Made by a program: the position numbers and the translations under genes. Under the pieces are notes generated by a model. It searched no databases. It had not been told where the DNA came from and saw only the letters and a list, made by a program, of their open reading frames with translations. From Alphaproteobacteria bacterium (GTDB lineage: Bacteria > Pseudomonadota > Alphaproteobacteria > Bin65), in contig JAJEGH010000046.1 of the NCBI GenBank assembly GCA_022819985.1, positions 1-64,000 of the forward strand: a stretch of DNA of 64,000 nt, read 5' to 3'. Shown here piece after piece: positions 30,313 to 35,962 of the stretch. Position 1 is the first letter of the stretch. Each line of letters opens with the position of its first letter.

Positions 30313-31269
30313 ATGAAGTTCAAAGCAACTCTGCTCGCTGCGGCCATTCTGGCTGTTGCGGCGCCGGCGAACGCCGAATCGGTCAATATCGGCGTACCGA
30401 ACTGGGTCGGCGCCAAAGCGATCGCGAACCTGATCAAGGTCGTCGTCGAGACCAAGATGGGCGGCACGACCGACATGGTGCCCGGCACCAACGCCAGCAT
30501 TTTCGCCGGCATGGACCGCGGCAAGGGCGAAATCGACGTCCATCCCGATGTCTGGCTGCCGAACCAGGAAACGTTCACCAACGAGTATGTCAAGAAGAAG
30601 AAGACGGTCGTTCTGAGCAAGAACCCCTATGTCGGCCGCCAGGGCTTCTGCGTTTCCAAGGACTTCTCGAAGAAGCACAAGGTAACCTCGATCTTCGACC
30701 TGACCCGTCCGGAAGTCGCCAAGGCGATGGACAGCGACGGTAACGGCAAGGGCGAGATCTGGATCGGCGCGCCGGGCTGGGCCTCGGCCAACGTCAACGA
30801 AATCAAGGTCCGGGACTACGGCCTGATGGCGTTCATGGAGCCGGTCCGCGCCGAGCAGAGCGTGATGACGGCGCGCGTCGGCGACAGCATCAAGAAGAAG
30901 CAGGGCTACGCCTTCTACTGCTATTCGCCCCACGCCATCTGGAACATGTTCGATATCGTGCGGCTGGAAGAGCCGAAATACGATCCCAAGAAGTACATCA
31001 TGGTCCAGCCGAAGCAGAGCGCGGACTGGAAGAAAAAGTCCAAGGTAATGACCGAAGACGCGCTGAAGGCGGTCCAGGTCGCCTGGTCGAAGTCGCTCGA
31101 AAAGCGCTCTCCGACCATCGCCGCCTTCCTGCGCAACATGAAGCTCGATTCCGATACGGTGAGCAATCTGGTTTTCGAGATCGCCGCCAAGCGGAGGGAT
31201 CCGGCAGAAGTGGCCAAGGAATGGGTCGCGAAGAACGGCAAGCGGGTCGACGGCTGGCTCGGCCTGTAG
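30313..31269 (+). CDS. Glycine betaine/quaternary-amine ABC transporter substrate-binding protein
   Basis: A 318-residue periplasmic protein of the OpuAC/ProX type. Residues 1-21 are a signal peptide ([20 protein letters not shown] then A), with cleavage predicted before ES. The mature part has the two-lobed OpuAC pattern: VNIGVPNWVGAKAIANLIKV, GEIDVHPDVWLPNQ, GWASANVN and FYCYSPHAIWNMFD, with the tryptophans and tyrosines expected of an aromatic cage for a trimethylammonium group. A GGAGG site lies 6 bases before the ATG. It is followed by an apparent terminator and then by the ATPase and permease genes, consistent with higher expression of the binding protein. Ligand within the betaine/choline/proline-betaine group is not determinable. 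Confidence 0.85.
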   Translation: MKFKATLLAAAILAVAAPANAESVNIGVPNWVGAKAIANLIKVVVETKMGGTTDMVPGTNASIFAGMDRGKGEIDVHPDVWLPNQETFTNEYVKKKKTVVLSKNPYVGRQGFCVSKDFSKKHKVTSIFDLTRPEVAKAMDSDGNGKGEIWIGAPGWASANVNEIKVRDYGLMAFMEPVRAEQSVMTARVGDSIKKKQGYAFYCYSPHAIWNMFDIVRLEEPKYDPKKYIMVQPKQSADWKKKSKVMTEDALKAVQVAWSKSLEKRSPTIAAFLRNMKLDSDTVSNLVFEIAAKRRDPAEVAKEWVAKNGKRVDGWLGL

Positions 31270-31304
31270 ACCCGCGGGCAATCTCCGCATAGCAAAGTCA
31301 GAAC

Positions 31305-31346
31305 CGCCATCGGGGCTCCGGCCCCGGTGGCGCTCTTCTTTCGTTT
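31305..31346 (+). terminator. Intrinsic terminator/attenuator inside the betaine-type transporter operon
   Basis: CGCCATCGGGGC (31305-31316) pairs with GCCCCGGTGGCG (31321-31332), 12 pairs with a single G-T wobble and a four-base loop, followed by the T-rich CTCTTCTTTCGTTT. It sits between the binding-protein gene and the ATPase gene, where partial termination would keep binding-protein mRNA in excess. Confidence 0.6.
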
Positions 31347-31358
31347 GACCGCCAACGC

Positions 31359-32453
31359 ATGAGCGCCGTTGCAACCGAGGTCATGTCCGGAACCGGCCGG
31401 GCGGATACCGCCATCGAGATCGAAGGCGTCTGGAAGATTTTCGGCGCCCGGGCCCGGGGGGCGCTGGACGCCGTGCGGGCCGACGACATCTCCAAGGCCG
31501 AGGTTCTGGAGCGGTTCGACTGCGTGGTCGGCGTGGCGGATGTAAGCCTTTCGGTCCGGCGCGGCGAAATCTATTGCGTCATGGGCCTGTCGGGCAGCGG
31601 CAAGTCCACACTGGTCCGGCATATCAACCGGCTGCTCGAACCGACCGCCGGCCGCGTCCTGGTCAACGGCGAAGATATCCTGTCGTTGCAGGACGACGCC
31701 TTGCGGCGCTACCGCAACGAACATATCGGAATGGTGTTCCAGAATTTTGCGCTGATGCCCCACCGGTCGGTGCTGGACAATATCTCCCTGCCGCTGGAAA
31801 TCCGTGGCGTGAGCAAGAACGAGCGCACCGAAGTGGCCCAGCGCGCGATCCGGATGGTCGAGCTCGGCGGCTGGGGCCACAAATTCGCGCACGAGCTTTC
31901 CGGCGGTATGCAGCAGCGGGTCGGCCTCGCACGGGCGCTGGCCGCCGACCCTGAAATCCTGCTGATGGACGAGCCGTTCAGCGCGCTCGACCCGCTGATC
32001 CGGCGGCAGCTCCAGGACGAGTTCATCAAGCTTGCCGGCGTCATGAACAAGACGACCGTCTTCATCACCCACGACCTCGACGAGGCCGTCCGCATCGGCG
32101 ACCGGATCGCGATCATGCGCGACGGCCGGGTCGTCCAGACCGGCCGGCCGGAAGAAATCGTGCTGCATCCGGAAGACGACTATGTCGCCGATTTCGTCGC
32201 CGGCATTTCGCGCCTGAAAGTGGTGCGCGCCTACGCCGTGATGAAAGGGCTCGACGAGCACGAAGCCGAACACGGGCCGGTCCCGGCCGATGCGCGGCGC
32301 TTCCGGCACGACGAGAATCTGAGCGTCCTGATCGAGGCGGCGATCGAGGACGATGCGCCGGTCGTCGTGGTCGACGGGGACGGGCGGGACATCGGCGCGA
32401 TCACGCGCGCCGACCTGCTGCGCGCCGTGGTGGAAGGAACGGAAACGTCATGA
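31359..32453 (+). CDS. Betaine-type ABC transporter ATP-binding protein (ProV/OpuAA family)
   Basis: A 364-residue ATPase. Walker A is GLSGSGKSTLVRHINRL (about residue 75), the Q-loop is MVFQNFALMPHRSV, the signature is HELSGGMQQRVGLARALAAD, and Walker B is EILLMDEPFSALDP. After residue 270 comes a regulatory part with a partial CBS-like pattern (SVLIEAAIEDDAPVVVVDGD then RADLLRAVVEG), as in ProV/OpuAA where it senses ionic strength. A non-conserved insertion (residues 25-50, ARARGALDAVRADDISKAEV) sits between the first strand and the core, also typical of ProV. The stop overlaps the permease start (ATGA). Confidence 0.9.
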   Translation: MSAVATEVMSGTGRADTAIEIEGVWKIFGARARGALDAVRADDISKAEVLERFDCVVGVADVSLSVRRGEIYCVMGLSGSGKSTLVRHINRLLEPTAGRVLVNGEDILSLQDDALRRYRNEHIGMVFQNFALMPHRSVLDNISLPLEIRGVSKNERTEVAQRAIRMVELGGWGHKFAHELSGGMQQRVGLARALAADPEILLMDEPFSALDPLIRRQLQDEFIKLAGVMNKTTVFITHDLDEAVRIGDRIAIMRDGRVVQTGRPEEIVLHPEDDYVADFVAGISRLKVVRAYAVMKGLDEHEAEHGPVPADARRFRHDENLSVLIEAAIEDDAPVVVVDGDGRDIGAITRADLLRAVVEGTETS

Positions 32454-33973
32454 CCGGCGCGGCCGAAACCGCCCCTCCGGCCGGCAGCCAGTCGGACCAG
32501 ACCGGCCCGCTCGTCGCGGAGTTCACGCAAACCGACGGCGCCTACTACCGCCGGACGTTCGAGCGCATCGGCGGATCGTCCAAATTCGTCTGGATCTTTC
32601 ATCCCTGGGCTGCGCTGCTCGGCCCGGTCTGGTACGGCGCGCGCGGCCTGTGGAGCGCGGCCCTGCCGTTCCTGCTGGTCGAGACCTTCGCCTTCATCCA
32701 GATGGCCCGCGGCCTGTTCGGCAACCTGGCGACCGACGCCTACGCCCGGGTCGCCCAGATCGAGGCCACGCTGGCCTTCCGCAAGAAGCAGCTCGAGGCG
32801 GCGCGCGCCGCCAACGCCGACAATGTGGAGGTGTTCGAACGCACGGTGCGATCGCTCGAAGCGGCCATCGACGGCATCCGGCAGGAGGCGCTGGAAATCG
32901 AACAGGGCGCGATCTGGGTGGTCCTGTCCGGTATCGCGATGCTGCTGGTCTTCAAGGCGGCCGAAGGCTTCTGGGCGAACCGGGCGCTGGAGAAGCGCTT
33001 TTCGGAATGGCTCTCCGACCGGAAGGTCGCCAGCGGCGTCTCGGTGCGGCGTACGATGCTCAGCATCGTCTTCTGCCTCGTCATCGTGGCGGCGTCGATC
33101 CTGCACTATGCCTTCCCCGGCGAGTTCGACATCCTCGCCGGCTTTCCGACCGACGACATCTTCCGCAGCGAATCGAGCGAGGCGGTCAAGGCCTTTTTCG
33201 AGGCCGTCACGACCGGCGGCAGCGCCTTCTTCGGCTCCATCGCCTACGGCATCCGCGTGATCCTGGATTTCCTCGAGATCGTCTTCGTCGAAACGCCGTG
33301 GCTCGTCGTCGCCAGCTTCATCATCCTGCTGACCGGCCTTTCCGCCGGCCCGCGCCCGGCGATCTGGGCCGGCGCCTTCCTCGGCTACATGGGCATCCTG
33401 GGCTTCTGGGACAAAGCGATGACGACACTGGCCCTGCTCGGCACCGCGGCGTGCATCTCCATCGCCATCGGCATTCCGCTCGGCGTCTATTGCGCCCGGC
33501 GGCCCAGGGTCTACGCCGCAATCCGGCCGATCATGGATTTCATGCAGACCATGCCGGCCTTCGTGTTCATGATCCCGGTGATCGCCTTTTTCGGCACCGG
33601 CAAGCCGGCCGCCGTCGTCACGACGATGATCTTCGGCGGCACGCCGGTGGTGCGGTTGACGGTGCTCGGCCTGCGCGGCGTGCCCGAATCCGTGCGCGAG
33701 GCCGCGATCGCCTACGGCGCCTCGAAATTCTACCTGCTGACCAAGGTCGATCTGCCGCTCGCCAAGCCGTCCATCATCGCCGGCATCAACCAGACCATCA
33801 TGCTGAGCCTGGCCATGGTGGTCGTCGCCTCCCTGATCGGCGCCAAGGGCCTCGGCGAGGACGTGCTGGAGGCGCTGCAATACGCCTCCGTGGGGCAGGG
33901 CATCCTCGCCGGCTTCGCCATCCTGTTCTGCGCCCTGATCCTCGACCGCATCGTGGCGGGGGCGAAGACCTGA
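32450..33973 (+). CDS. Betaine-type ABC transporter permease with an extra N-terminal membrane domain
   Basis: A 507-residue inner-membrane protein. The C-terminal half (about 275-500) is a ProW-type permease: multiple membrane helices and the EAA loop near residue 400 (GVPESVREAAIAYGASKFY followed by LLTKVDLPLAKPSI). The first 200 residues are additional: a DUF2628-like segment (KFVWIFHPWAALLGPVWYGA), a coiled-coil stretch (about 100-150, IEATLAFRKKQLEAARAANA) and two more predicted membrane spans. ProW proteins do have a variable N-terminal extension, but this fusion with a DUF2628-like module is unusual. Starts ATGA-coupled to the ATPase gene. Confidence 0.85.
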   Translation: MTGAAETAPPAGSQSDQTGPLVAEFTQTDGAYYRRTFERIGGSSKFVWIFHPWAALLGPVWYGARGLWSAALPFLLVETFAFIQMARGLFGNLATDAYARVAQIEATLAFRKKQLEAARAANADNVEVFERTVRSLEAAIDGIRQEALEIEQGAIWVVLSGIAMLLVFKAAEGFWANRALEKRFSEWLSDRKVASGVSVRRTMLSIVFCLVIVAASILHYAFPGEFDILAGFPTDDIFRSESSEAVKAFFEAVTTGGSAFFGSIAYGIRVILDFLEIVFVETPWLVVASFIILLTGLSAGPRPAIWAGAFLGYMGILGFWDKAMTTLALLGTAACISIAIGIPLGVYCARRPRVYAAIRPIMDFMQTMPAFVFMIPVIAFFGTGKPAAVVTTMIFGGTPVVRLTVLGLRGVPESVREAAIAYGASKFYLLTKVDLPLAKPSIIAGINQTIMLSLAMVVVASLIGAKGLGEDVLEALQYASVGQGILAGFAILFCALILDRIVAGAKT

Positions 33974-34067
33974 GTTCGCCCCGCGGGCGCGCGCACGGCA
34001 CTGGAAACCGGACGGCGGCCCGGCGATAATCGGCCCGCTCCGACACCATGACGCGAGGGGAACAGCC

Positions 34068-35789
34068 ATGACTGCGGCCGAAGAGTTCGAAGCCCTCTGG
34101 CCCGGCGGCGTCAGCGCGGTGCCGGCCGTGCCCCCGGCGCCGCGGCCGTCGGATCTCAACGGCAAGCGCATCGGGTTCCTGTGGGACTATGTCTTCAGGG
34201 GCGATGAAATCTTCCCGGTGCTGGAGAGCGCCCTCGCCGAGACCTACGACGATGTCGAGATCGTTGGCTACGACGCCTTCGGCTCGACCTTCGCCGGCGA
34301 CGAGCACGAGACGCTGGCCGCGTTGCCGCAGCGGCTGAAGGAACTCGGGATCGACGCGGTGGTGTCCGGCGTCGGCGGTTGAGGCGCCTGCACGCCCGCC
34401 GTGATGCGGGCCAGCGCCATCGTCGAGAAAACCGGAATACCCACCGCCTCCCTGGTCTGCGACGGCTTCATCGGGCAAGCCGCCGGCATCGCGCCGGGGC
34501 TCGGCATCGCCGGCCTGCCGGTCGCCCGTATCGTCGGCCATGTCGACGGGCAGGACCTCGACGAGCTGCGGCAGAACCTGAAGGCGGTCACGTCGAAGGC
34601 CGTGATCGACTGTCTCACCAAACCGGTGGAGGCGGCGACGGCGGCATCCGGACTCACCAGCGATACCGTCGTTGCGCAGGGCTCGTTCGATGACGTGAAC
34701 CGGGTGTTCTACGAGCGCCGGTGGAGCGACGGCCTGCCGATCGTGCCGCCGACGGCCGACCGCGTGGCCGCATTCCTGTCTTGCACCGACGGCGATCCCG
34801 ATCGCGTGATCGGCGTGCTCAAGCCCTCCGGCTCGGCGGCGACCGTCCGGAACGTGGCGATCAACGGTGTGATGGCGAATTGCCTGCCGGAACATATGCC
34901 GGTGCTGATCGCCATTGCCGAAGCGCTCGCCGATCCCGGCTATGGCGTCGAACACAGCGGCGATACCACCGGCGGGGATGCGCTCATAATCCTGAGCGGC
35001 CCGGTCGTCGAGCGGTTGCAGTTCAATTGCGCGGAGGCGGCGCTGCGCGACGGCTACCGGGCGAACACCAGCGTCGGCCGGTTCCTGCGCCTTTACCTGC
35101 GCAACGTCGCCCGCTGCCTGCCGGGCGCCACGGACAAGAGCACATTCGGCCATACCTGGCGCGTCGTCCTAGCCGAGAACGGTGCGGCGGCGCAGGAGCT
35201 TGGCTGGCCGTCGTTCAGCGCCGATGCCGGCTTCGAGGCGGATGCGAACGTCGTCACCGTCGGCCGCTTTACCGGCAGCAGCGTGATCGGCTCGATCTAC
35301 GGCAACGACCCGCACACCATCGCCCGCTACCTGGCGGACGGCCTGGTCCGCCAATCGGGCTGGGAGCTCGTCTTCACCCTTGGCTTTTCCCGCGGCCTCT
35401 ATCGCCCGCTGCTCGTCCTGAGCCCGATGGTGGCGAAGACGCTGGCGCGCAGCGGCACGACGAAAGAGCGGCTGCGCGGCCTGCTGTTCCGGTATGCGCG
35501 GCTGCCCGCAAGCAAGCTGGAATCCTATATCGGCGCCTGGTCCAACATGGTGCCCGGGAACCGGAGCCTGAACGAGCTGGTGGAAGCCGGCAAGGCGGCG
35601 CCCCACTACGGCGAAAGCGACGATCCCGAACGGTCGGTGCCGATCGTCGAAAAGCCGGAGGATATCCTTCTGGTGCTGAGCGGCGACCCGCTCCGCTCCA
35701 ATGCCTGCGCGTTCGCCAGCAACGGCATGCACGGCTTTCCGACCGGCAAACGCATCCGAATGCCGGCGGAAAAGTGCAGGGATTCGTAG
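34068..35789 (+). CDS. Predicted selenoprotein: UGSC/GrdB-like Sec domain fused to an uncharacterised domain
   Basis: Read as a single 573-residue protein, with the in-frame TGA at 34380-34382 (codon 105) decoded as selenocysteine. Both sides are in the same frame and the join reads VVSGVGG-U-GACTPAVMRAS, i.e. Sec-Gly-Ala-Cys-Thr. This resembles the UGSC-family motif and, as I recall, the Sec-Gly-x-Cys-Thr site of GrdB-type reductase subunits, including the following EKTGIP segment. Residues 1-190 form that domain. Residues about 200-573 (RRWSDGLPIVPPTADRV, VRNVAINGVMANCLPEHMP, DTTGGDALIILSGPVVERLQ) belong to an uncharacterised family. A GAGGGG site precedes the ATG. A hairpin suited to a bacterial SECIS follows the TGA. 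It starts 94 bases after the betaine-type permease. Without selenium decoding it would look like two truncated ORFs, 104 and 462 residues. A thiol/selenol redox role is inferred, not shown. Confidence 0.8.
34383..34411 (+). promoter_or_regulatory. Candidate bacterial SECIS element
   Basis: Immediately after the in-frame TGA, GCCCGC (34394-34399) pairs perfectly with GCGGGC (34406-34411), enclosing the six-base loop CGTGAT. Seventeen bases separate the TGA from the loop, and a G occupies the second loop position followed by T, matching what is known of bacterial SECIS hairpins read by SelB (loop about 16-37 bases downstream, G in the first two loop positions). It lies inside the coding sequence, as all bacterial SECIS elements do. 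Confidence 0.65.
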
Positions 35790-35824: not shown

Positions 35825-35862
35825 CCCTTCGATACGCTGCTTCGCGGCTACTCAGGGTGAGG
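35825..35862. repeat. REP-like unit, family GATACGC...GCTACTC (copy 1)
   Basis: CCCTTCGATACGC, a small hairpin (TGCTTCGCGG region), then GCTACTCAGGGTGAGG. The ends match, in opposite orientation, the unit at 35889-35933. Located in the 209-base gap between the selenoprotein gene and the convergent COQ9 gene. Confidence 0.6.
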
Positions 35863-35888
35863 GGTGAGGAGTATCCCGAACACTCTTC

Positions 35889-35962
35889 TCCTCATCCCGA
35901 GTAGCCCCGGACTTGTCCGGGGCGTATCGAGGGAGCCTGCCCTGAGCGAAACCGAAGAAGCG
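35889..35962. repeat. REP-like unit, same family (copy 2), with a second repeat type attached
   Basis: CCTCATCCCGAGTAGCC, hairpin CCCCGGAC TTG TCCGGGG, then GCGTATCGAGGG (to 35933): the reverse complement of copy 1 with a different central hairpin. It is followed by GAGCCTGCCCTGAGCGAAAC to 35962, whose complement is close to 1141-1165. Together with copy 1 it forms a convergent pair in the gap between two convergent genes, where such elements often act as bidirectional mRNA stabilisers or terminators. Confidence 0.65.

Follow-up and report, generated by a model that had tools for sequence, protein, structure and literature searches.

The window analyzed here is a stretch of 64,000 nucleotides. 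On its plus strand, an ATG at 34068 opens a frame of 104 codons that is closed by a TGA at 34380–34382 and then remains open as far as a TAG at 35787–35789; 468 codons follow the TGA, or 462 if they are counted from a GTG at 34401. A sequence-only reading had described this split frame, and both its sequence and its coordinates were borne out when the frame was read again. Translated through the TGA, the product contains the motif GVGG-U105-GAC108 followed by TPAVMRASAIVEKTGIP. The features of the locus, together with a related gene elsewhere in the same genome, are as follows.

30313..33973, plus strand: glycine-betaine-type ABC transporter (OpuAC, ABC_tran and BPD_transp_1), given as context only
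30313-31269, plus strand: binding protein of the transporter
31359-32453, plus strand: ATPase of the transporter
32450-33973, plus strand: permease of the transporter
34055..34062, plus strand: likely Shine-Dalgarno sequence GAGGGGAA, preceding the ATG at 34068 (inferred from sequence)
34068..35789, plus strand: whole gene, almost certainly for a selenoprotein of 573 amino acids with Sec at 105 (translation with TGA read as U, co-linear homologues, dN/dS)
34095..34604, plus strand: UGSC domain (PF24696), residues 10–179, 91.8 bits
34380..34382, plus strand: TGA codon for the predicted Sec105, with which the UxxC motif begins (TGA in 24 of 25 homologues, a Cys codon in one)
34380..34419, plus strand: candidate SECIS hairpin of the bacterial type, immediately 3' of the UGA (fold, homologues, near-frozen codons)
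34389..34391, plus strand: Cys108, putative resolving partner of Sec in UGAC, invariant in homologue alignment A2
34653..35786, plus strand: COOH-terminal domain, approximately residues 196–573, with the near-invariant Cys272 and the signature WSDGLPxxPPT
C20:27902-29458 (L025:7900-9504), minus strand: further UGSC selenoprotein gene of the genome, small and unfused, with its own TGA and the motif GVGDUGSCSSC

The transporter genes end 94 bases upstream of the selenoprotein gene on the same strand. Just 3' of the gene, at 35826–35933, lies an imperfect palindrome whose arms, CCTTCGATACGC and GCGTATCGAGGG, are 84 bases apart with CTTCGCGGCTACTCAGGGTGAGG between them; its sequence occurs as a single copy within the window, and it could be a repeat element or a terminator.

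The sequence-only reading had also held that a chance nonsense mutation at this point would be improbable. We found this argument to be weak, given that the 64-kb window contains 26 single stop codons flanked by open frames, one with a minimum of 100 codons and the other with a minimum of 400. The window is GC-rich, and with 26 similar split frames in it the pattern alone is not rare, so that other evidence was needed.

Assignment to the UGSC family, as already proposed from the motif, was supported by the Pfam model PF24696, whose match to residues 10–179 spans the TGA with 91.8 bits (gathering threshold, 25). Each half alone also exceeded the threshold, with 29.6 bits before the TGA and 40.8 bits after it, and all 25 aligned homologues matched the model. 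The NCBIfam equivalog model NF041046 (UGSC_fam) yielded 51.4 bits, below its cut-off of 125, and it is therefore plausible that automatic gene calling would miss the read-through gene.

Homologues were co-linear with the window protein over residues 1–568 at 49–91% identity. Of 25 full-length homologues (28–91% identity), nearly all of them from Alphaproteobacteria, 24 have Sec (TGA) at position 105 and one (G369) has Cys, with the UGxC or CGxC motif beginning with U or C in every case. Full-length genes with the same TGA were present in five of the six other genomes of the same genus (86–91% identity), and the gene was also found in another genus of the same family (61%) and in 10 further alphaproteobacterial genomes (50–54%). 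The named records were mostly Rhodospirillaceae MAGs, some of them from sponges, and one was labeled Gammaproteobacteria. Cys or Sec at position 105 in unbroken homologues was the support that the sequence-only reading had looked for, and this is what we found; no homologue ended at the TGA or carried any other residue at position 105. When 385 alphaproteobacterial genomes were scanned with the Pfam UGSC model, 38 of them yielded a total of 98 matches. Exactly one in-frame TGA was present in 93 of these matches; of the remaining five, four have Cys at the site and one ends before it.

The Cys-type UGSC genes at loci L144, L145 and L146 have the motifs HCGSSS (in genome G313) and NCGSCT (in G254 and G333), and G313 holds both Sec-type and Cys-type genes. 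Further Cys-type fusions were sought in the order to which G369 belongs, and none was found. Individual alphaproteobacterial genomes (G195, G372, G365, G288, G203 and others) contain as many as eight different UGSC genes, of which nearly all have a single TGA; expansion of one selenoprotein family to this extent is unusual. At residue 104 (34377–34379), most homologues have Cys directly before Sec (GVGCUGAC, GMGCUGSC), which gives a Gly-Cys-Sec-Gly arrangement like that with which animal thioredoxin reductases end. In the window protein and its closest relatives, residue 104 is Gly.

A sequencing or assembly error might be suspected in a draft genome of 51 contigs, but it is refuted by independent assemblies, the same TGA being present in independent MAGs from different samples, and we regard it as the least credible explanation of all. 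Slightly less remote, although still extremely improbable, is the production of two proteins, the first ending at the TGA and the second restarting at GTG 34401, which lies 18 bases after the TGA. The UGSC domain nevertheless continues across the stop, a restart would discard the motif Cys108 together with the conserved residues 105–111, and Cys-type homologues are unbroken. The locus might instead be a pseudogene, in which a nonsense mutation struck a Cys-type gene whose remainder is now decaying; a Cys homologue does exist (G369, locus L091), and the change from TGC to TGA is a single step. The same TGA is, however, kept at 49–91% identity over many families, the frame contains no other stop or frameshift, and Sec machinery co-occurs with it. 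Comparison with nine relatives yielded dN/dS values of 0.11–0.34 upstream of the TGA and 0.15–0.33 downstream, with the downstream part thus being as constrained as the upstream part and purifying selection acting on both. The conservation of the TGA and the downstream dN/dS values well below 1 refute decay, leaving the pseudogene with a probability as slight as that of the two-protein arrangement.

The genome encodes selA (543 bits), selB (398 bits), selD (272 bits) and a tRNA-Sec with the anticodon UCA, all over their cut-offs. The selA, selB, selC and selD genes that had been named for checking are thus all present, and they form a cluster (selA-selB-tRNASec-selD) that takes up less than 5.7 kb of contig C22, all on one strand (approximately 28.2–33.8 kb). 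In a comparison of 42 genomes, SelB was detected in all 23 with a TGA-type UGSC gene and in only one of 18 without such a gene (Fisher p = 1.2e-10, uncorrected for relatedness of the genomes and hence too extreme); SelB was missing from the genome that carries the Cys-type fusion, and G320 was left out given that its fusion gene is cut before the Sec site. One frame selected on both sides of the stop, exchange of TGA with a Cys codon, and Sec machinery in the genome together indicate that 34068–35789 is almost certainly one selenoprotein gene, in which the UGA at codon 105 would be read as Sec. The initial proposal that the split frame represents one selenoprotein is therefore upheld by homology across the stop, by the conserved TGA, and by the Sec machinery.

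Directly after the UGA, the RNA may form a SECIS hairpin. The 40 bases from the UGA fold at -22.4 kcal/mol, with a modest z of -2.06, and the predicted apical stem (34394–34399/34406–34411) carries the loop CGUGAU. The apical loop lies approximately 20 bases beyond the UGA, as is usual in bacterial SECIS elements. The apical stem CCCGC/GCGGG and the loop CGUGNU recur in most homologues and in nearly all close ones. Codons at the hairpin were near-frozen: Pro110 was CCC in 20 of 21 sequences (vs 29% of Pro codons overall), the Ala codon in the hairpin (codons 110–112) was GCC in 20 of 21 (49% overall), Val112 was GTG in 21 of 21 (41%), and Arg114 was CGG in 20 of 21 (37%). Only two of 127 comparable columns, Val112 among them, were fully frozen, with synonymous choice being free elsewhere. 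Base-pair counts revealed few compensatory changes, and an Rfam search at the SECIS position gave no match. An RNA element, and with it a candidate SECIS, is thus supported by codon constraint and not by covariation.

The COOH-terminal domain comprises roughly 375 residues and has the signature W-x-D-G-L-P-x-x-P-P-T; its Cys272 (34881–34883) is Cys in 33 of 35 sequences. The domain was not matched by any Pfam or NCBIfam model, and profile searches detected no solved relatives either of the whole protein or of this domain. Two AlphaFold models of high confidence (pLDDT of 88.7 and 86.1) were submitted to fold comparison, which gave no match with E <0.001; the best hits, a MetH/FtsZ-like fold for the whole protein and a class I fumarase fold for the COOH-terminal domain, were both rejected on the basis of query TM-scores of approximately 0.15–0.29 and a large rmsd. 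The domain also occurs alone, and in many other genomes a second copy lies directly behind the fusion gene. In the genome of the window, the unfused UGSC gene on contig C20 adjoins a stand-alone copy of the domain. That the same two domains occur both fused and as separate proteins speaks for their acting jointly. The unfused UGSC gene also has a Crp-like regulator, a MetE-like protein and a catabolic cluster of LigB, aldehyde dehydrogenase and FAA hydrolase as neighbors.

With regard to gene neighborhood, the order of transporter and selenoprotein gene is common to loci L071 and L074 and is absent at L072 and L073; we rejected a constant association with the betaine transporter, given that two congeners at 86–87% identity have other neighbors. 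TRAP or peptide ABC transporters are close to the fusion at several loci, and several copies are near genes for a TauD dioxygenase, beta-eliminating lyase, M81 peptidase or decarboxylase/racemase-like protein. At eight related loci, the gene for a thioredoxin reductase (TrxR)–like FAD oxidoreductase bearing a CAxC motif lies near the fusion. This gene comes directly after the fusion gene and a second copy of the COOH-terminal domain at L079, L083, L084, L085, L087 and L088, is adjacent and divergent at L086, and lies a few genes upstream at L082. In the genus of the window, neither the TrxR-like gene nor a second copy of the domain is adjacent to the selenoprotein gene. A search by sequence of the window's genome for a dedicated TrxR-like partner did not find one, the sole close match being 31% identical and on another contig. 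The link between a TrxR-like operon and the UGSC fusion was not found in the open-access literature searched.

The sequence-only reading had likened the protein to GrdB-type selenoproteins. What stands of this likeness is a sub-threshold match to the PrdB profile around the motif, with residues 74–158 aligning to model positions 118–200 of 238 (E = 2.3e-4), and nothing stronger. The match was present in seven of 25 members, and it places Sec105 within a few residues of the PrdB Sec, which occupies position 152 (PMC3091704). The NCBIfam scores were 20.7 bits for PrdB (cut-off of 300) and 10.5 bits for GrdF (cut-off of 800), the Pfam GRDB and PrdA/GrdE models gave no match, and the COOH-terminal domain showed no family match of the PrdA/GrdE partner type. 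In the mechanism put forward for PrdB, Sec attacks the substrate, a Cys resolves the selenoether, and NADH-linked PrdC provides the reduction; glycine reductase is reduced by NADPH via thioredoxin reductase (PMC3091704).

Translation of the window gene would require SelB-bound Sec-tRNA to read the UGA at codon 105, steered by the hairpin immediately downstream. The product would be a protein of 573 residues with an NH2-terminal UGSC domain, containing the Sec-x-x-Cys center, and the COOH-terminal domain. The latter may hold a small organic substrate, which the selenolate of Sec105 would attack; Cys108 would then release Sec105 as a selenenylsulfide, and a thioredoxin reductase–type flavoprotein would restore the reduced form. 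The TrxR-like neighbor in related operons is a candidate for this recharging enzyme. On the basis of the weak PrdB similarity and of gene neighbors, the most likely function is that of a reductase component working like PrdB/GrdB, the chances of which we put at about even. The nearby transporter and catabolic genes suggest that its substrate is an imported metabolite.

A less probable but still substantial alternative is that the selenoprotein is a thiol-disulfide redox, peroxidase or repair enzyme and not a substrate-cleaving reductase of the PrdB/GrdB type. The Global Ocean Sampling (GOS) study inferred a Trx-like fold and a redox function for UGSC proteins (PMC2398784), most homologues contain the Gly-Cys-Sec-Gly motif, and TrxR-like neighbors would suit any thiol redox enzyme. 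Such a function fits less well with the catabolic-looking neighbors (the transporters, TauD dioxygenase, beta-eliminating lyase, M81 peptidase and decarboxylase/racemase-like genes) and with a large, conserved COOH-terminal domain with an invariant signature. To return to the PrdB/GrdB-like reductase, a more specific version would join the fusion with a TrxR-like partner in a selenium-dependent enzyme of this type that cleaves bonds reductively and acts on imported betaine-like or amino acid–derived osmolytes in marine sponge–associated Alphaproteobacteria. We consider this version unlikely; if true, it would provide a counterpart of glycine, betaine and proline reductases outside anaerobic fermenters, with a new substrate-binding domain.

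The present analysis corrects a gene that ordinary annotation would plausibly split, and it shows the UGSC fusion to be widespread and nearly always of the Sec type in Alphaproteobacteria. The new elements are this breadth and near-exclusive use of Sec, the presence of a split pair alongside the fusion in one genome, and the link to a TrxR-like operon. The TrxR-like partner, the second copy of the COOH-terminal domain, and the transporters offer a lead on the function of a marine selenoprotein family that ranks among the most abundant, with UGSC proteins being listed in a 2026 review among those that are functionally largely uncharacterized (PMC13188914).

UGSC is an established selenoprotein family and, according to Zhang and Gladyshev (2008), a major one in GOS data (PMC2398784). 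The window protein is a further member, sharing with PF24696, NF041046 and the GOS proteins the same domain and a UxxC motif with Sec first. The strong preference for Sec over Cys is also shared, with 255 Sec and 21 Cys members in GOS (PMC2398784) and 93 and 4, respectively, in the Alphaproteobacteria examined here. The window protein differs in being fused to a COOH-terminal domain of approximately 375 residues and in scoring far below the equivalog cut-off of NF041046. This type of fusion has probably been reported already: the 2008 publication describes a UGSC/Unknown_1 fusion selenoprotein (PMC2398784, Figure S1A), in which, as here, a UGSC selenoprotein is joined to a conserved domain that also occurs alone, and the fused GOS domains hold a conserved Cys. 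The COOH-terminal domain of the window protein is likely Unknown_1. Similarity to PrdB (D-proline reductase) and GrdB (glycine/sarcosine/betaine reductase), which depend for their regeneration on electron donors linked to NAD(P)H (PMC3091704, PMC13188914), is weak and centered on the Sec motif, with Sec and a nearby Cys in common. PrdB and GrdB are known from anaerobic amino acid fermenters, however, and the window protein differs from them in its COOH-terminal partner domain.
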